This document shows, piece after piece, positions 53,046-61,731 of a DNA stretch of 64,000 nucleotides. This DNA is from Candidatus Gastranaerophilales bacterium (lineage in GTDB: Bacteria > Cyanobacteriota > Vampirovibrionia > Gastranaerophilales > Gastranaerophilaceae). The translations under genes and the position numbers were made by a program. Below the pieces are notes generated by a model. It saw only the letters and a list, made by a program, of their open reading frames with translations, was not told where the DNA came from and did not search any database. How positions within the stretch are numbered: position 1 is the stretch's first letter; the number at the start of each line of letters is the position of its first letter. The stretch is from positions 1 through 64,000 of the forward strand of contig JAQUVW010000002.1 in assembly GCA_028693235.1 (NCBI GenBank), read 5' to 3'.

Positions 53046-54044
53046 ATGATAATGGAAGAAAAAGAAAAAATTAAAAAACAAGAAAAAAGAAACCCAAATA
53101 AAATATTCATAATTGCTATAGCCTTCTTGATATTAATATTTGGTTGCAAGTTCATCTACGATGAATTAGGTTATGTTTCAACCGATGATGCTTATGTCGA
53201 AACAACAACAGTACAAGTTTCACCAAAAGTTTCAGGTCAGCTTGTTAAAGTATTGGTTAGTGATAATCAAAAGGTTAAAAAAGGTGATTTAATTGCTGTT
53301 ATCGAAGATAATGACTACAAAATAAAACTTGCACAAGCTAGTGCAAAATATGAACAAGCAATACAAAACCAAAAGAATGCAAAAGCAAATCATGAATCTG
53401 TCCAAACACAAATCGCAACAGCAAAAGCCGATTATGAAAGATACAAACATTCTTATGAAGCAGGTGCTGTATCAAAACAAGCTTATGATGCGGCAAAAAC
53501 AAAATATGATAGCGTAAAAGCAACTTTGACAAACAGTTCTGAAGCTTTAATTACAAAAGACGGAAAAAGTGTTGCTGACGCTCAAATTGCGGAATTAAAA
53601 GCACTGAAAAATCAAGCAGAACTATATTTATCATACACAAGGATTTATGCACCACAAGATGGGACAATTGCGGGCAAAAAAGCATCTGTCGGAATGTTAG
53701 TTCAACCGGGAACCCCTTTATTAACAATCGTTCCACATAATGTTTGGGTTATTGCAAACTATAAAGAAAACCAGCTTGAACATATTGAAATTGGTCAAGA
53801 AGTTGAAATCAAAGTCGATGCATATCCTCATCAAAAGTTCACCGGCAAAATTGACAGTTTTCAAAGAGCATCAGGAGCTAAATCTTCTATGTTTCCACCA
53901 GAAAATGCTGTTGGTTCTTTTGTAAAAATAGTTCAAAGAATTCCTGTAAAAATAGTATTTACAGACCTAACCGAAGAACAAATGAAGAAGATAATTCCCG
54001 GAATGAGTGTTGAGCCAAAAGTTAATATCAGAAAAGCGATTTAG
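53046..54044 (+). CDS. emrA: EmrA-type membrane fusion protein (HlyD family)
   Basis: The 332-residue adaptor has a cytoplasmic basic start, one TM (IFIIAIAFLILIFGCKFIY), then DELGYVSTDDAYVETTTVQ, the EmrA/HlyD-type periplasmic start. A lipoyl domain split by a coiled-coil hairpin follows (KIKLAQASAKYEQAIQNQKN ... YLSYTRIYAPQDGTIAGKKA), then a beta-barrel with FPPENAVGSFVKIVQRIPV, typical for EmrA. It connects the EmrB pump to the outer-membrane channel. ATG 53046 and ATG 53052 are both possible; AAGGA spacing favours the second slightly. Confidence 0.93.
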   Translation: MIMEEKEKIKKQEKRNPNKIFIIAIAFLILIFGCKFIYDELGYVSTDDAYVETTTVQVSPKVSGQLVKVLVSDNQKVKKGDLIAVIEDNDYKIKLAQASAKYEQAIQNQKNAKANHESVQTQIATAKADYERYKHSYEAGAVSKQAYDAAKTKYDSVKATLTNSSEALITKDGKSVADAQIAELKALKNQAELYLSYTRIYAPQDGTIAGKKASVGMLVQPGTPLLTIVPHNVWVIANYKENQLEHIEIGQEVEIKVDAYPHQKFTGKIDSFQRASGAKSSMFPPENAVGSFVKIVQRIPVKIVFTDLTEEQMKKIIPGMSVEPKVNIRKAI

Positions 54045-54052
54045 GGGTTGCA

Positions 54053-55615
54053 ATGGCAAACGATACAACAATAGAAAACTGGAGTCCAAAGTACAGTTCT
54101 TGGACAATCGCTTTACCTGTATTGATGGCTGTGTTTATTTTTGCACTTAATGAGACCATTTCAAACGTAGCACTGGTAAACATTGCAGGGGCACTTTCTA
54201 TAAGTATGAACGAGTCGACTTGGATTATCACAAGTTATCTTATGGCAAGTGGTATAGCAATTGCAATGGTAGGATTTTTAGCCAAAATATTGGGACGAAA
54301 AAAACTCTTTATCTCCGCTGTAATTTTATTTACAGTATCATCATTTACTTGTGCAATTTCAAACTCAATGCTTATGATGGTTGTTTCCAGATTCTTTCAA
54401 GGAATCGGAGGAGGAGCATTATTACCGTTAGGACAGGCAATCATTTTAGAAACTTTTCCCCCAAATGAAAGACAAAAAGCGATGGCAATTTTTGGGTTAG
54501 TTTTTATTTTAGCACCTGTAATAGGTCCGATTCTTGGTGGCTGGATTACCGAAAACTGGTGCTGGCAATGGATTTTTTTAATTGATATTCCTCTTGGAAT
54601 TATTTGTGCATTATGGCTTAAAAAAATTCTCGAGGATCCACCTTATGCAAGAAAAGAAAAGAATGTAAAAATTGATACAGTTGGTATAACTTTCCTTTCA
54701 CTATGGCTGATTTCAATGCAAATCGTATTAGATAAAGGAAATGATGCCGATTGGTTTGGCTCAGCTTGGGTGTGTTGGCTAAGTGCTTTTTCTATAATTT
54801 GTGCGATTATATTTTTTGTATCTCAATTTAAAAACAAAGAACCGCTTTTGAATTTACGAATTTTAAAAGACCCGACTTATTTTTGGGGAACTTTTATTCA
54901 AGTAATCTTGATGGCGGTTTTCCTTGCATCAGCATCACTCTTGCCTTCTATGCTACAAAACCTTATGGGCTACACATCATATTTAAGTGGGCTTTCTATG
55001 GGCATAAGGGGGGCAGGAAATTTAATTGCGTTGTTTGCATATTTTATTATAGCTAAACACTTAGGTGATAGAAGAATTGCAGCAATTGGATTGTTCTTTT
55101 TAGGCTTGGGAAGTTGGTATTTTGGAATGATTAATCTTGAAATAAACCTAAATTCTATCGCAATTCCAAACATCTTCTACGGAGCGGGAATCTTCCTTTC
55201 TTTAACACCATTGGTTCCGCTTTCTTGTGCAACTATTGATAATAAAGATTTAACAAATGCCTCAGGTATTCAAAACCTTTTAAAAAACACTGGCGGAGCA
55301 ATTGGAACTTCAATATCCGTAACAATGATTTCAAGATTTTCTCAAATGCATCAAATGATGATGGTTCGAAATTTAAATTACACAAATGACACTTTTATGG
55401 AAAAAATAAATGCTGCAACTGCAACCTTTTCAAACAACGTAGATCCGATAACAGCACAAGGAATTGCTCATGGAATGGTTTATGGCGAATTGGTTAAACA
55501 AGCACACTTATGGGGTTATATAGACACTTTCAGATGGTTTGCTGTTGTAACCTTCTTGTTAATCCCGTTACTACTATTTATAAAAAAACCAAAAGAGGTA
55601 AAAGATGAAAAATAA
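54053..55615 (+). CDS. emrB: EmrB-type DHA2 drug/proton antiporter (14 TM, MFS)
   Basis: The 520-residue protein has the 14-helix DHA2 layout. SWTIALPVLMAVFIFALNET starts TM1, SYLMASGIAIAMVGFLA and the loop AKILGRKKLF fill motif A, and GGGALLPLGQAIILETFPP and VIGPILGGWITENWCWQWIF (motif C) follow. It exports hydrophobic toxicants by proton antiport. It starts eight bp after emrA and overlaps the channel gene by 11 bp. Confidence 0.95.
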   Translation: MANDTTIENWSPKYSSWTIALPVLMAVFIFALNETISNVALVNIAGALSISMNESTWIITSYLMASGIAIAMVGFLAKILGRKKLFISAVILFTVSSFTCAISNSMLMMVVSRFFQGIGGGALLPLGQAIILETFPPNERQKAMAIFGLVFILAPVIGPILGGWITENWCWQWIFLIDIPLGIICALWLKKILEDPPYARKEKNVKIDTVGITFLSLWLISMQIVLDKGNDADWFGSAWVCWLSAFSIICAIIFFVSQFKNKEPLLNLRILKDPTYFWGTFIQVILMAVFLASASLLPSMLQNLMGYTSYLSGLSMGIRGAGNLIALFAYFIIAKHLGDRRIAAIGLFFLGLGSWYFGMINLEINLNSIAIPNIFYGAGIFLSLTPLVPLSCATIDNKDLTNASGIQNLLKNTGGAIGTSISVTMISRFSQMHQMMMVRNLNYTNDTFMEKINAATATFSNNVDPITAQGIAHGMVYGELVKQAHLWGYIDTFRWFAVVTFLLIPLLLFIKKPKEVKDEK

Positions 55616-56975
55616 AAAACTTATATCCGCATTTTTATGCATAAATATTTTAGCGATAAATGCAACACCTTCAATCGCTATAACATCTGCTACTAAAAAC
55701 AACACCATAAAAACACAGGTAACAGAATACAAATTTGAAAATATCAATCTTGATTGGTGGCAGTCATACAATGATGAATATTTGGAAGGATATATAATAA
55801 AAGCTTTAAATGAAAACCAAGACCTAAAGATTGCAACTTTAAAAGTTGAAGAGGCAAAGCAAAATGTCAAACTTCAATTTGCACAAGAACTTCCCGGGGC
55901 TCAAGTCGGCGTATCGCCTGTTTTGTCGAAGCTACCGTACAATACAAGCACCGAGGGTTCTTTTTCAATACCTATAGCTGTAAATTACGAGGCTGATATT
56001 TTTCTAAAAAATCATGATAAAACTAAATCCGTAAAGAAGCTTTATGACGTTGCAAAATTCAATGAAAAAGCTTTATACATTTCTATTTCATCGCAAATTG
56101 GAGCCACTTATTTCAATATTGTTAAGCTTGATAAATTAATTCATATTCAAAATGAAATAATTAAAGACAGAAAACAGATTTTTGAACTGAACAAAATCAC
56201 AAACTCTCAAGGACTGACTTCAACGGCAGATTTAGTAAATTCTGAAAAAGCTTATGTATTAGCGGTTGCAGATATGTCTGACTTAAAAAAAGCAAGAGAA
56301 ATTCTTTTAAACTCGCTTGCTGTTATGACAGGTGAGAGCCCTAGCAATATTGAAGAAATGGGCAGATTAAGCTTTGATGAATTAACAGCTACAAAACAAA
56401 TTCCTGTTGAAATAGCATCCGATGTTATAACCAACCGTCCTGACTATCTAGCAGCAGAAAAAATGGTAGAAAAAGCAGGTCTTGATGTAAGAATTGCAAA
56501 AAAAGAATTTCTACCTAATATTAATCTTTTAGGATTGTTAACCTTTAACTCTTTTTCAAGCGTAAGCTCTATGAACTGGGCAAATGTACTTGCTGTTTTT
56601 GGAGGAGCTGCAATGCTTGATATTTTTAGAGGTGGTGCTAAAATAGCGAATTTAAGGCTTAAAAAGAACTATTACGAACAAACCCTCCAATATTATTACA
56701 AAACCAATTTGACAGCTATACAAGAGGTCAATGATGCACTTTGTGCATTAAAATTTGACCACAATAAATATTTAAAGAACTTAAATTCATATAGTATGCA
56801 AAAGAAAGATTATAAATATTCAGAAATAAAATATCAAGACGGATTAATCTCAAATCTTGACTTACTTCAACAAAAAGAAACGCTATTATCTATGAACAAG
56901 ATGGTAATTTCAAGTAAAACAGACTGTTATATTAATCAAATCAGCTTATATAAAGCAGTTGGGGGTAAATTATAG
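55605..56975 (+). CDS. TolC/NodT-family outer-membrane efflux channel
   Basis: The 456-residue protein has a signal peptide (MKNKKLISAFLCINILAINA-TPSIA) and two OEP repeats (LKIATLKVEEAKQNVKLQFA; LDVRIAKKEFLPNINLLGLL). DLVNSEKAYVLAVADM and DYKYSEIKYQDGLISNLDLL are the alpha-barrel halves typical of NodT-type channels. It provides the outer-membrane duct for EmrAB. Its ATG lies inside the end of emrB. No lipobox is visible. Third and last gene of the MarR-emrA-emrB-channel locus. Confidence 0.92.
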   Translation: MKNKKLISAFLCINILAINATPSIAITSATKNNTIKTQVTEYKFENINLDWWQSYNDEYLEGYIIKALNENQDLKIATLKVEEAKQNVKLQFAQELPGAQVGVSPVLSKLPYNTSTEGSFSIPIAVNYEADIFLKNHDKTKSVKKLYDVAKFNEKALYISISSQIGATYFNIVKLDKLIHIQNEIIKDRKQIFELNKITNSQGLTSTADLVNSEKAYVLAVADMSDLKKAREILLNSLAVMTGESPSNIEEMGRLSFDELTATKQIPVEIASDVITNRPDYLAAEKMVEKAGLDVRIAKKEFLPNINLLGLLTFNSFSSVSSMNWANVLAVFGGAAMLDIFRGGAKIANLRLKKNYYEQTLQYYYKTNLTAIQEVNDALCALKFDHNKYLKNLNSYSMQKKDYKYSEIKYQDGLISNLDLLQQKETLLSMNKMVISSKTDCYINQISLYKAVGGKL

Positions 56976-57267: not shown

Positions 57268-57303
57268 TTGACAAATTTTCATATATTTGGTCTAATTAAT
57301 TAG
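57268..57303 (+). promoter_or_regulatory. Promoter with CTAATTAATTAG palindrome over the -10
   Basis: The -35 is TTGACA (57268-57273), followed by a 17-bp spacer and -10 TCTAAT (57291-57296, 5/6). The perfect palindrome CTAATTAATTAG (57292-57303) overlaps the -10 and start site and continues into TTTATTA. The same CTAATTAAT...TAGTTTATT sequence occurs in the emrA palindrome at 52939-52960. Drives the GTG-started gene at 57321. Confidence 0.65.
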
Positions 57304-57320
57304 TTTATTATATAGGATAT

Positions 57321-58595
57321 GTGAATAACGTGGTACTAAGAGTTTCACCTTGTAGTTTTGTGCATCAAAAAGCACAGAAAAAAGTTGTCAACAAAGCTCC
57401 TCAAACTCAAACATCAAATCAAATAAATTTGTTCGAGGGAGCACATTCAAAAAATTATTTTTACAACAATTTAGATAAAAGACCTTATAAATTTATATCA
57501 TTTTACGGACGTCCGATTTCATTAATGAAAGGTGACGTTAGTTCTGCAAATGAGGCGATTAGACTTTGGAATGTTCTTGGTAAACAACAATTTTGTGATA
57601 CCGGAGATGACAATATACATCAAGAATACAAATTAATACGTGAAAATAACTATTCTTTTTTAGATGAATTATATTCTGATAAAGAAAAAAGGATATTTAT
57701 AGATAATTTCAAAAGAGTTACTAAGTTTCCTGATATGATTGCAACATCAGAAAATATCGAAAAAGAATTTATAAACGGTGCCAAAAAATCAGAATATATA
57801 AATAATACAAACACAAGAAGCAATTCTTACGATATTTTATGTGCCGGATATAATAATGAATGTTCTGTCGGCAAAAGAAAAGCATTACCGGGTAGTGATA
57901 TTGATGACGCTTTTATAGTAATAAGAGGTTCTCAATATGGTAAAGATGAAGATATTGTCAATAATTTTAAAAAAGAACTTTGGTTTAACACTGATCAACG
58001 TATATTAAGTTACAATCACCCTGATTCATTTCCTCAAGTTTACACCCTAAAGCAGATTGAAAATCTTTGCAGTATAACACAAGATGCCTCATCATCAATT
58101 CCTGAAAATGTTAAAAAAACACAAACTGATATCTCTAAATCTTATCTAAATGATTATGTTCAAGCAAATCCATACTTTTTAGCACTCTCTCAAAAATTTA
58201 AAAAGGAAGGAAAATACAATAAAGAAGAAATTAAAAATTTCGGTTTTTTCACAGAATCAGTAAAAAACGGAAAAATATTATACAACACAGATAGATTTTC
58301 CTTATATCTATTGCTTTTAGGCGATTCAGACATTTTTCAATATTCAAATTTATCTCAAATAAAAGCATTGCATAATGAAAATTACAACAAACCAAAATTG
58401 CAAAATCGAGATATTTTATGTCAAAATTTCGAAAAAATGGAAATAACAGAACAATACGAATTTGTAAAAAATATTATTAAAAACATGAGTGAAGATAATG
58501 ATGAAAATATGCCTATATACAAAAAAGGGACCGACAACTATAACCCTTTAATTCAAGCAATTACAGGAGAAAATAGCTATGATATCCAAAATTAA
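57321..58595 (+). CDS. Nucleotidyltransferase-like protein of unknown function
   Basis: The 424-residue product starts at GTG 57321 with AGGAT six bases upstream. Around residues 176-201 it reads G-YNNEC-SVGKRKALPGSDIDDAFIVI, which fits the DNA polymerase-beta-type nucleotidyltransferase pattern (Gly/Ser loop, then SDIDxxxxV with two acidic metal ligands D193 and D195/D196). A third Asp (D225 in FNTDQRIL) is in a plausible place. The N-terminal 150 and C-terminal 180 residues are charged and helical without recognised motifs. There is no signal peptide. Its last 17 bases overlap the PHP gene, implying a functional pair. Substrate unknown; assignment is by motif only. Confidence 0.6.
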   Translation: MNNVVLRVSPCSFVHQKAQKKVVNKAPQTQTSNQINLFEGAHSKNYFYNNLDKRPYKFISFYGRPISLMKGDVSSANEAIRLWNVLGKQQFCDTGDDNIHQEYKLIRENNYSFLDELYSDKEKRIFIDNFKRVTKFPDMIATSENIEKEFINGAKKSEYINNTNTRSNSYDILCAGYNNECSVGKRKALPGSDIDDAFIVIRGSQYGKDEDIVNNFKKELWFNTDQRILSYNHPDSFPQVYTLKQIENLCSITQDASSSIPENVKKTQTDISKSYLNDYVQANPYFLALSQKFKKEGKYNKEEIKNFGFFTESVKNGKILYNTDRFSLYLLLLGDSDIFQYSNLSQIKALHNENYNKPKLQNRDILCQNFEKMEITEQYEFVKNIIKNMSEDNDENMPIYKKGTDNYNPLIQAITGENSYDIQN

Positions 58596-60234
58596 TGCTT
58601 TTGAAACTTTTAATAATTGGAATTATAAAAAGACAGATACAAAATTTTGGATGTCACCACAAACGTCCAACGAAAACCTTTCCATGCCTGCTCTACCGAA
58701 CAAGGATACAATAACTATTAACAGTAAAAAAAAGCATCTTCTACCAGTTGCAATGCTGGGTGCAGGATTAATCGGGGGTGCTATTGCATTGTTTTGTGCC
58801 GCAAGGAAACCTTCTGCATTAATAGAAACTCCGCTTGTTCAAAATATATCTTCCTATAAATCTGAGCTTTTAAAATCCATGTGTATGAAGACATCGGATG
58901 TTTCAAAATTAGATTCAATCGTAGAAAAAAGTGATTTTTTAAAGTTTTTGAAAGAAATTCAAAATTCACCTAAAGTATTTGAAGTCGGAGAAAATTTTGA
59001 AGGTGTTATAAATAAAACCTTTGGTGCAAATTTACACATTCATACCACCCATTCTGATGGACAAATGAGTGTTGAAAAGTTATTAGACCAATCAGTTAAA
59101 TATGCGGATAAATACTTTGAAAAAAACAAAAAGCCTTTTTATATAGCAATTACAGACCATGATACAACAACAGGTTGCAAAGAGGCATTAGATATTATCA
59201 CCAAAACTCCTGAAAAATTCAAAAACCTAAAAGTTGTATTAGGAAGCGAAATTACGACTTCATTTGAAAACAATTTTTCTAAAGCACCTAAAAAAGTTGA
59301 CTTATTAGCATATTGTGTAAATCCCTTTGACAACAATATTTCACAGTTAAATAAAAACAATTTATTATTCCAGCAAGATTCTGTTAAAACAGTTATAAAT
59401 AATGCAAATTTCAGATTTTTGAACATATTAACAAAAAATAATGTCGAATATAGTTATAAAGATTTTGCTAAAATCAGACCCTCAATAAACACAACAACAG
59501 GCAGCCTTGCCCTTTCGATGAAAGATTATATGCAATTCAGACTAATTTATGCAAATATTGTGGAACAAAATCCCAAATTATTAAATGAAATGAAAAAAAA
59601 CGGAATATCACTGGAAAACCTTGATTTTTCAGAACCTAAAAGAATGGTAATGGCAGGAAAAATGTCTAAAAAGCCTTTTTGGGAAAATTATGTAGAAGAA
59701 GTTAAAAATTACATAAAAAATAAAGCACAAGAAACAAATCCTAACGCCGATATTAATGAATTAAACAAATGTTTTAAAAATGTCAGCCAAGATGTTATAA
59801 CGACTCTGGACGAACTCGATAGAGTCGTCCCGGACCCTGCTTCGGATTTGTTTGTTAAGACAGCAAAAAAATTAGATTTTGATGATGTCGTAACAGCTTT
59901 TTCAAAAGATAAAGATATCATTGTAGGCATTCCACACCCTTGTATAACAAGCAGTGAAGAAATAAACAATCCAAATGTTTATGATTTGATGGAAGATTTA
60001 TTCTCAAGATTTAAAAAAATATCAACTCATAACGAAAACCTATACGAAGGGTATTATCAATCATATTGGGATACTGTAACAGATTCACAAAAAAGTAATG
60101 TGAATAAAATAGCTGAAAAATACGGATTTTTGAAATCTGGCGGATTAGATTCTCACTTCGATAACATTTTTACCGACCAAAAAGGACTAAATCAGGAATA
60201 TATATCTCAAATAATTGAAGGCGTTGAAAAATAA
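58579..60234 (+). CDS. Membrane-anchored PHP-domain phosphoesterase
   Basis: The 551-residue product has a 50-residue polar start and one TM segment (LLPVAMLGAGLIGGAIALFC, about 54-75), then a PHP metal-dependent phosphoesterase domain. Metal ligands are seen in NLHIHTTHSDG (HIH 153-155, D160), AITDHDTT (DHD 193-195), GSEIT (222-226), GIPHPC (~454) and GGLDSHFD (~525). A helical insertion of about 150 residues splits the domain. PHP proteins hydrolyse phosphoesters (histidinol phosphate, pAp/AMP, DNA ends). It overlaps the nucleotidyltransferase-like gene by 17 bp, so addition and removal of a nucleotide or phosphate group by the pair is an attractive inference. Confidence 0.78.
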   Translation: MISKINAFETFNNWNYKKTDTKFWMSPQTSNENLSMPALPNKDTITINSKKKHLLPVAMLGAGLIGGAIALFCAARKPSALIETPLVQNISSYKSELLKSMCMKTSDVSKLDSIVEKSDFLKFLKEIQNSPKVFEVGENFEGVINKTFGANLHIHTTHSDGQMSVEKLLDQSVKYADKYFEKNKKPFYIAITDHDTTTGCKEALDIITKTPEKFKNLKVVLGSEITTSFENNFSKAPKKVDLLAYCVNPFDNNISQLNKNNLLFQQDSVKTVINNANFRFLNILTKNNVEYSYKDFAKIRPSINTTTGSLALSMKDYMQFRLIYANIVEQNPKLLNEMKKNGISLENLDFSEPKRMVMAGKMSKKPFWENYVEEVKNYIKNKAQETNPNADINELNKCFKNVSQDVITTLDELDRVVPDPASDLFVKTAKKLDFDDVVTAFSKDKDIIVGIPHPCITSSEEINNPNVYDLMEDLFSRFKKISTHNENLYEGYYQSYWDTVTDSQKSNVNKIAEKYGFLKSGGLDSHFDNIFTDQKGLNQEYISQIIEGVEK

Positions 60235-61731
60235 TTATAAAACTCTGATTCTATCATCTTTTTCTATTGTAAGAACTTGTTTTTTCTTCATGTAATTCAT
60301 CAAATCATTTTGCAAATCGCCAATGATAACAGCATCTTCAAAAACAGGTTCCAACAATTCAGAAGTGTAATCACTTTGGAATAGATAACGATTTACAGCC
60401 AAAGAAACTTTTTTATCGGAAGGATTTTGTGGGTCGATAACTCTGCCGTTGTTTAATTTTATATGTTGAACTCCATCACGTGACACGACATATTGCATGC
60501 CGGAAGTTTGAAGCAAATCAGAGCCTGCCAAATTATCATAGACCGATTGAGCTGAAATATCGAGCATATCGACCAAAGTTTTTTCATCAATGTCGACTAG
60601 TAAAATATCATCAGAATAAGGAAGATTATTATAAACAACGTCATGGGTTGTAACGACTTCATCGAAGCCACCATGGAGTGTTCCTGAATTCAAAAGTGCG
60701 ATATCGGCTTTTCCTTTAGACGCCCAAAGCATCGCATCAGTTAAAATATCTGCAATAGGGTTTTCCTGTTCACGTTCTTCTGCTTCAGATTGAGGAACAT
60801 AAGGATTTGTAACCTGAGCTAATTTTTCGTTATGCCCTAATTTTTCTTTTGTCAAATCAGCGACATCTTGTCTTTTTTCCCAATTTACAACATTTGTTAT
60901 TCTGTTTTTTATTTGAGAGGTCTTCAATATTCCTTCTGAATTAAAAACAACATCAAGGAAACCGACTTTGTGGTTGTTTTTGCCTGCCTGAGTAATAATG
61001 ACAGGTTCGTTTCTTTTAGATTGGAACAAATTATGCGTACCAACGCCATTAATTTCATCATGGCTATGACCACCGATTATAACATCGACGCCTTCTGTTT
61101 CTTGGGCTATTTTTTTGTCAGCTTCGTAGCCCATGTGAGATAGCAAAATAATTTTGTTAATTCCTTGTTCTTCAAGTTGTTTTGCTTCTTCGTTAATGGA
61201 GTCTATGGTTTCTTGTGTGCTCAAAGCTTTTGTAGCATTATTATTTTTGTCTTTTGCACTTATAGATTCATTGTTTGGAGCAACACCGATTACGCCAAAT
61301 CTTTTGCCGTTTTTCATGCAAACTGAGGATTTAACAAGTTTTTTGTCTTTTATTCTCTTTTTCAAATTATTATTTTCTTGGAGTTTTATGTTCGCACAAA
61401 CAGTTTCAAAGGAGGCATTTTCAAGATAATTTGAAAGTTTATCTGTTCCACTGTCAAATTCATGATTTCCGAGAGTCACAAAATCTGTTTTTATTTTGTG
61501 TAAAATTTCAAGAACAAGGTTATTTCGTTTTTTATTTTGTCCATACAAAAAATCACCTGATGTAACAGTTAATTTTGAAGCATCGCTTTGACGTTCAAAA
61601 CTATCATGAGCCTTAGCCAAATTGCCAAGACGGTGAACATCGCCATGCAGGTCATTAAAATAGAATACATTCAACTGCGTGTCGTTTTTATCATATACGG
61701 GCTGCGGTGTAAAAAACTTATCTATTTTCAT
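60235..61731 (-). CDS. 5'-nucleotidase / metallophosphatase (UshA family) without signal peptide
   Basis: The 498-residue product has the two-domain 5'-nucleotidase plan. The metallophosphatase motifs are NVFYFNDLHGD, SGDFLYG, LGNHEFDSG, LLSHMGYEAD and GGHSHDE. The C-terminal nucleotide-binding domain includes NPIADILTDAMLWASKGKAD and LNSGTLHGGF. Family members are normally exported; this one starts MKIDKFFTPQPVYDKND with no hydrophobic leader, so it would act in the cytoplasm or leave by another route. It abuts the PHP gene tail to tail (stop codons one base apart), with no terminator between. Confidence 0.88.
   Translation of the reverse strand: MKIDKFFTPQPVYDKNDTQLNVFYFNDLHGDVHRLGNLAKAHDSFERQSDASKLTVTSGDFLYGQNKKRNNLVLEILHKIKTDFVTLGNHEFDSGTDKLSNYLENASFETVCANIKLQENNNLKKRIKDKKLVKSSVCMKNGKRFGVIGVAPNNESISAKDKNNNATKALSTQETIDSINEEAKQLEEQGINKIILLSHMGYEADKKIAQETEGVDVIIGGHSHDEINGVGTHNLFQSKRNEPVIITQAGKNNHKVGFLDVVFNSEGILKTSQIKNRITNVVNWEKRQDVADLTKEKLGHNEKLAQVTNPYVPQSEAEEREQENPIADILTDAMLWASKGKADIALLNSGTLHGGFDEVVTTHDVVYNNLPYSDDILLVDIDEKTLVDMLDISAQSVYDNLAGSDLLQTSGMQYVVSRDGVQHIKLNNGRVIDPQNPSDKKVSLAVNRYLFQSDYTSELLEPVFEDAVIIGDLQNDLMNYMKKKQVLTIEKDDRIRVL

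Follow-up and report, generated by a model that had tools for sequence, protein, structure and literature searches.

What might two overlapping genes, one encoding a nucleotidyltransferase-like protein (NT) and the other a membrane-anchored phosphoesterase of the PHP fold (PHP), accomplish together in a gut-dwelling relative of the cyanobacteria? The question is raised by a 64,000-nucleotide stretch from a Candidatus Gastranaerophilales bacterium (contig JAQUVW010000002.1, positions 1 to 64,000; hereafter the window), for which an initial annotation, made from the sequence alone, had proposed a transferase coupled to a phosphoesterase. Both open reading frames are present on the forward strand of the window, NT at positions 57321–58595 (GTG start, 424 amino acids) and PHP at 58579–60234 (ATG start, 551 amino acids). 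The 17 bp overlap between them was confirmed, and an AGGAG-type ribosome site for PHP is located inside the NT gene. The evidence presented here suggests that NT and PHP form one co-translated, tightly coupled functional unit, and it points to coupled catalysis.

NT was compared with the nucleotidyltransferases of the Pol-beta superfamily, for which the motif hG[GS]-X(7-13)-DxD served as criterion. It contains this motif as C181-S182-X10-D193-I-D195, followed by D196 (positions 57861–57908, forward strand), with Cys in place of Gly; the motif quoted in the initial annotation, SVGKRKALPGSDIDD, corresponds to residues 182–196. MntA from Shewanella holds its nucleotide and metals through G27-S28, S38, D39, D41, and D71 (PMC7641770). 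Residues S182, S192, D193, D195, and D225 of NT match S28, S38, D39, D41, and D71 of MntA with an offset of 154 at every position. The third catalytic acid (D225-Q226-R227, 57993–58001, forward strand), at the spacing of MntA D71, is Asp in 57/57 NTs paired with PHP and Asn in 18 of 22 paralogues without PHP. When the NT profile was aligned by hhalign with MNT proteins drawn from genomes of the same phylum, P values of 2–4e-4 were obtained in the same catalytic register, and the alignment of the paired clade reached the third Asp. With the unpaired clade by itself, P was 2.9e-4, and the strand preceding the motif was aligned as well. Control values were 0.12–0.81 for 20 column shuffles and at best 0.026 for 38 unrelated neighbour families; the value of 3e-4 refers to a single pre-specified comparison and would fall short of significance in a blind database search. 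An AlphaFold2 model built with 64 sequences (mean predicted local distance difference test score (pLDDT) 85; 307/424 residues at ≥90) comprises a disordered leader (residues 1–60) and a folded part (61–420), in which a strand (172–177), the DxD motif, a strand (198–201), a helix (209–223), D225, a bridge at about residue 229, and a strand (239–242) follow one another, a strand order that would fit a nucleotidyltransferase. The motif, its spacing, the profile comparison, and the predicted secondary structure together make it very probable that NT is a nucleotidyltransferase of the Pol-beta type (MNT-like); a Pol-beta-type motif had been noted in the initial annotation.

An alignment of 64 family members revealed the consensus GYD-xx-CS-x-G-xxx-A-[LF]-P-G-S-D-x-D and five invariant residues outside it, E312, N343, and the basic motif K357-x-K359-xxx-R363 (58389–58409, forward strand). 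The expectation that the acidic residues are conserved held for D225 in all paired NTs, but not universally for DxD, which is lost in 7/57 of them; its first Asp is kept in 50/57 paired and 21/22 unpaired NTs.

NT represents an unrecorded protein family that is confined to Gastranaerophilales. No Pfam or NCBIfam model matched the window NT above its cut-off, and PADLOC and PHROGs gave nothing of note. Matches to DUF6911 (E = 0.009) and beta-TrCP (E = 0.001–0.03) were weak, involved one or two members, and were judged to be due to chance. A search for CD-NTases (PF18144, SMODS) gave no match in the genome that encodes NT. Relatives of NT occur patchily, in 77 of 383 Gastranaerophilales genomes; 386 genomes sampled from the phylum yielded none beyond the order, and none was found on viral contigs or plasmids. 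A scan of GTDB genomes with the single peptide pattern PGSD[LIC]D..., which is blind to DxD-dead members, yielded 65 NT loci labelled mostly Gastranaerophilales or Melainabacteria. The second set of paralogues comprises 22 loci, all without a PHP neighbour; one of them (L063) has a long branch that the tree puts within the paired clade, and its motif is missing. In another (L166, 3726–5897), the N-terminal region resembles a protein-kinase-type fold (GTGANSKVYKF ... NPNNILIDYDKQKIQIIDF) with no Pfam match. Nucleotidyltransferase-type stretches (PF01909/PF18765) were also seen in two very long open frames elsewhere, one of 2746 amino acids in genome G000 (C5:21411-21638, outside the window) and one of 3066 amino acids in genome G029.

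The second protein is a true PHP-fold phosphoesterase with an intact metal site, its activity being predicted from sequence and model. The complete metal site named in the initial annotation was recovered: all eight ligands are present in the window protein and conserved among relatives. They comprise H153, H155, and D160 in the motif LHIHTTHSDGQ (59032–59064), H194 (59158–59160), E224 (59248–59250), H453 (59935–59937), and D524 with H526 (60148–60156), all on the forward strand. The Pfam profile PF02811 matches 33/51 PHP family members. A PHP model with a pLDDT of 83 gave Foldseek probabilities of 1.00 to several PHP structures, with matches to RNase AM (9etk), 3e0f/3o0f, 2yb1, and 7ug9 at E values of 1e-8 to 1e-5; against the equivalog NF047791 of RNase AM, an enzyme characterized by 5′–3′ exoribonuclease activity on short RNA, PHP scored 34.9 bits at a cut-off of 375. 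Ahead of the PHP domain lie some 55 leader residues and a single hydrophobic segment (residues ~57–80, 58747–58818, forward strand; KD19 mean 2.16), a probable single transmembrane helix that agrees with the anchor noted earlier. The KD19 threshold of ≥1.6 was passed by 31 of 54 paired PHPs and by 0/57 NTs of the paired clade.

Several peculiarities of the leaders and gene forms were observed. The leaders of NT and PHP are disordered and often start with M[KRNQ][IVL] (58% and 73%, respectively; 11% in other genes), as seen at 57321–57500 and 58579–58750 of the window and in L113–L177; FxG is contained in 77% of NT leaders versus 19% of other genes. A similar leader is found on a few unrelated neighbours (for example L115 1–780 and L161 4192–4776), some with a Gly-rich hydrophobic helix, and the shared leader may be a targeting signal of Gastranaerophilales. 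One locus (L121, 3925–6585) contains an NT followed by two tandem PHP genes, the second shorter and without the N-terminal ligands. In genome G054 (L081, 3950–5614), a single open reading frame joins the first ~90 NT residues to a complete PHP, as if the catalytic part of NT had been deleted in frame.

Adjacency of the two genes is complete in the NT clade to which the window protein belongs and exceeds chance. In 57/57 loci of this clade, a PHP homologue adjoins NT on the same strand, and adjacency was 50/50 in a second genome collection that consists largely of the same genomes and is not independent. Nearly all relatives are metagenome-assembled genomes, the adjacency counts include near relatives, and the trees were quickly built. 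The gap between the genes varies between −25 and +33 bp. NT precedes PHP in 31 loci and follows it in 26, and the order switched about two times on the tree. The distance matrices of the two proteins are correlated (r = 0.956). The genomic context of the pair varies between lineages, PHP being the sole widely shared neighbour of NT. Frequent separation of the genes, which would have counted against the initial annotation, was not seen within the NT clade, where NT is never apart from PHP, but the 22 distant paralogues lack a PHP neighbour and PHP is often alone. Relatives of PHP occur in 248/383 genomes, and none of the 20 PHP loci without a known NT that were read has an NT beside PHP. Four NT-less PHPs (L238, L239, L240, and L243) sit where other members of their genus carry the paired loci, which means that NT either disappeared from these places or never reached them. 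Mapped onto the PHP tree, the presence of NT requires a minimum of 11 changes. As PHP exists alone, it has a role of its own.

Sequence comparison suggests that the active sites of NT and PHP tend to be lost together. DxD is replaced in five NTs of genus g11 (SGxN) and in two others (GPxD). For the metal site, only rows lying fully within contig and locus were counted, and the ligands were complete in 54/54 distinct PHPs paired with a DxD-containing NT. The metal site is destroyed in L054 and L057 and altered by H453Q in L021; NT is dead in all three. It is also damaged in L239, L240, and L243, which are three of the four g11 loci with NT missing, and intact in L013, L016, L017, L018, and L238, where NT is dead or missing. 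All four inferred metal-site losses fall on NT-inactive branches (P = 0.02–0.04). PHPs beside a dead or missing NT are somewhat relaxed, with ratios of nonsynonymous to synonymous substitution rates (dN/dS) of 0.09–0.36 versus 0.07–0.09. In the five g11 loci L013, L016, L017, L018, and L021, both catalytic Asp residues of NT are replaced (PGSGLNK) under purifying selection as strong as in active NTs, describing a natural pseudoenzyme.

Our tentative preference is that the MNT-like nucleotidyltransferase acts as a writer coupled to the RNase AM-like phosphoesterase as an eraser. S182 and S192 are the predicted contacts of the triphosphate, and D193, D195, and D225 would bind two metal ions, allowing NT to move a nucleoside monophosphate (NMP) from a nucleoside triphosphate onto an acceptor, for which a protein, an RNA end, or a small nucleotide are candidates. 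PHP, a putative RNase AM- or 3′,5′-nucleotidase-like metal phosphoesterase tethered to the membrane, might then hydrolyse the phosphoester made by NT, or trim or recycle the NT product. In its most far-reaching form, the proposal would be an undescribed reversible nucleotidylation system confined to this one order of gut bacteria. NMP marks or signals would be written by the new NT family and removed by the membrane-tethered PHP, whose kind is otherwise known from RNA and nucleotide turnover, and both sites would be lost together when the system is off; this form is a more doubtful one.

Several observations weigh against a writer–eraser pair. The Pfam nucleotidyltransferase families, including PF01909, match 0/64 NT family members, C181 stands where the GS motif has Gly, and Foldseek with the confident NT model retrieved nothing from PDB or BFVD at E < 0.6, so the Pol-beta fold is predicted rather than shown. 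When the distant, long-branched pair L254/L256 was left out, three metal-site losses remained (P = 0.05–0.10), and an independent-pairs test of joint decay, always in the same direction, did not reach significance because events were too few. The dead g11 NTs have a dN/dS of ~0.08, compared with 0.05–0.12 in live pairs, which argues for an additional, non-catalytic function of NT or against DxD as the target of selection; together with the relaxed PHPs, it indicates that both proteins do more than catalyse. The D-to-N change at the third acid and the absence of PHP in the paralogues could be one ancestral event. Finally, the metal site is complete in 16/21 PHPs without NT, so the purpose of PHP is not just undoing NT.

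The most serious alternative starts from type VII toxin–antitoxin modules, in which MntA adenylylates the RNase HepT. By analogy, NT might nucleotidylate or merely bind PHP and so switch off a possibly harmful enzyme. This is possible rather than likely. The MntA-like catalytic spacing and the overlapping two-gene unit are consistent with such regulation, as is the one-sided dependence, in which NTs of the paired clade are always accompanied by PHP but PHP can stand alone. The decay of PHP sites where NT is dead or gone is as if an unregulated enzyme were harmful, and the conservation of dead NTs is as expected for a binding partner. On the other hand, an NMP modification site specific to paired PHPs was looked for and none was found: conservation of a Tyr, Ser, or Thr was in no case limited to paired PHPs, and residues conserved there at ≥90% are also conserved in most active unpaired PHPs. 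The 16 unpaired PHPs with a complete metal site indicate that active PHP is tolerated without NT, and a HEPN domain is lacking. The one-sided pairing and the joint decay are explained about equally by an eraser and by a target of regulation; overall, the regulatory account is nearly as good.

In a rather unlikely alternative, NT and PHP act one after the other in a shared metabolic or RNA-processing pathway, for instance by adding a nucleotide to an RNA or to another nucleotide and then trimming it, with neither protein opposing or regulating the other. The RNase AM-like fold of PHP and its commonness without NT (248 genomes, against 77 with the patchy NT) would fit, but the NT clade that never lacks PHP and the joint decay are left unexplained. 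It is improbable that NT is toxin-like and PHP its antidote, in a toxin–antitoxin or effector–immunity pair. An antidote could be alone and a toxin could not, as observed, and the distribution is patchy; yet the genes were not found on plasmids or viral contigs, PADLOC gave no match, the co-inheritance has been long (r = 0.956), and PHP is kept and conserved in NT-less genomes. The CS...PGSDxD loop might even be a chance resemblance in another fold, with the pair forming a structural or other enzyme complex. The missing Foldseek and Pfam support and the dispensability of DxD in 7/57 paired NTs, whereas E312, N343, and R363 never vary, are in line with this idea; five residues at MntA ligand spacing and an MNT profile match in each NT clade separately make it very improbable.

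Among known systems, NT resembles MntA of the HEPN/MNT modules (type VII; PF01909, NTP_transf_2) in its GS-like X10 DxD X29 D spacing, its two-gene unit, and its profile (P ~3e-4). It differs in its length of 424 amino acids with large helical regions, in matching no Pfam family, in having Cys for Gly, and in its partner, which is a PHP protein and not a HEPN protein with RX4HXY. PHP shares its fold and metal ligands with RNase AM/TrpH/YciV and the 3′,5′-nucleotide bisphosphate phosphatase (9etk, 7ug9, 2yb1), its best sequence and fold matches, but has a large helical insertion between E224 and H453, the disordered leader, and the membrane segment. Bacterial and archaeal DNA polymerase X, with its Pol-beta palm and C-terminal PHP domain, likewise brings a Pol-beta-type transferase and a PHP phosphoesterase together, but in one chain; NT and PHP are separate genes in 57/57 loci, no polymerase-domain match was obtained, and the PolX match covers the PHP part only. 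In noncanonical PolX, the palm decays and the PHP site stays (PMC9226535), whereas the decay is opposite here, the PHP site tending to go when NT is dead or absent. A description of such an NT/PHP pair was not found in the open-access papers searched, among which most subscription papers are missing.

Upstream of NT, the sequence contains a possible promoter on the forward strand (57268–57296), with an exact −35 hexamer TTGACA (57268–57273) and, 17 nucleotides downstream, TCTAAT as a −10 hexamer with 5/6 matches. The claim that one strong promoter drives the pair was not sustained: TTGACA-17-TCTAAT is absent from the list of the promoter scan, and the region has no excess of promoter-like sites (17 observed versus 23.4 ± 6.7 expected from shuffled sequence). 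Just upstream (53046–56975), genes for HlyD-like, MFS (EmrB-like), and outer-membrane efflux (OEP) proteins form an apparent efflux operon. Convergent with PHP on the reverse strand (60235–61731) is a gene for a 5′-nucleotidase/UshA-like metallophosphoesterase with no evident signal peptide; as a third component of the system it was rejected, since its adjacency to the pair is not kept elsewhere.

To our knowledge, almost no genes of Gastranaerophilales have been studied experimentally. The present analysis adds an unrecorded nucleotidyltransferase family that is tied to a PHP phosphoesterase by complete adjacency and by signs of joint decay. The natural dead–dead, dead–live, and PHP-only variants make the coupling of NT and PHP directly testable. 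If PHP indeed reverses NT or is regulated by it, the pair would represent a new kind of writer–eraser or modification-controlled enzyme pair and would provide a rare functional handle on Gastranaerophilales.
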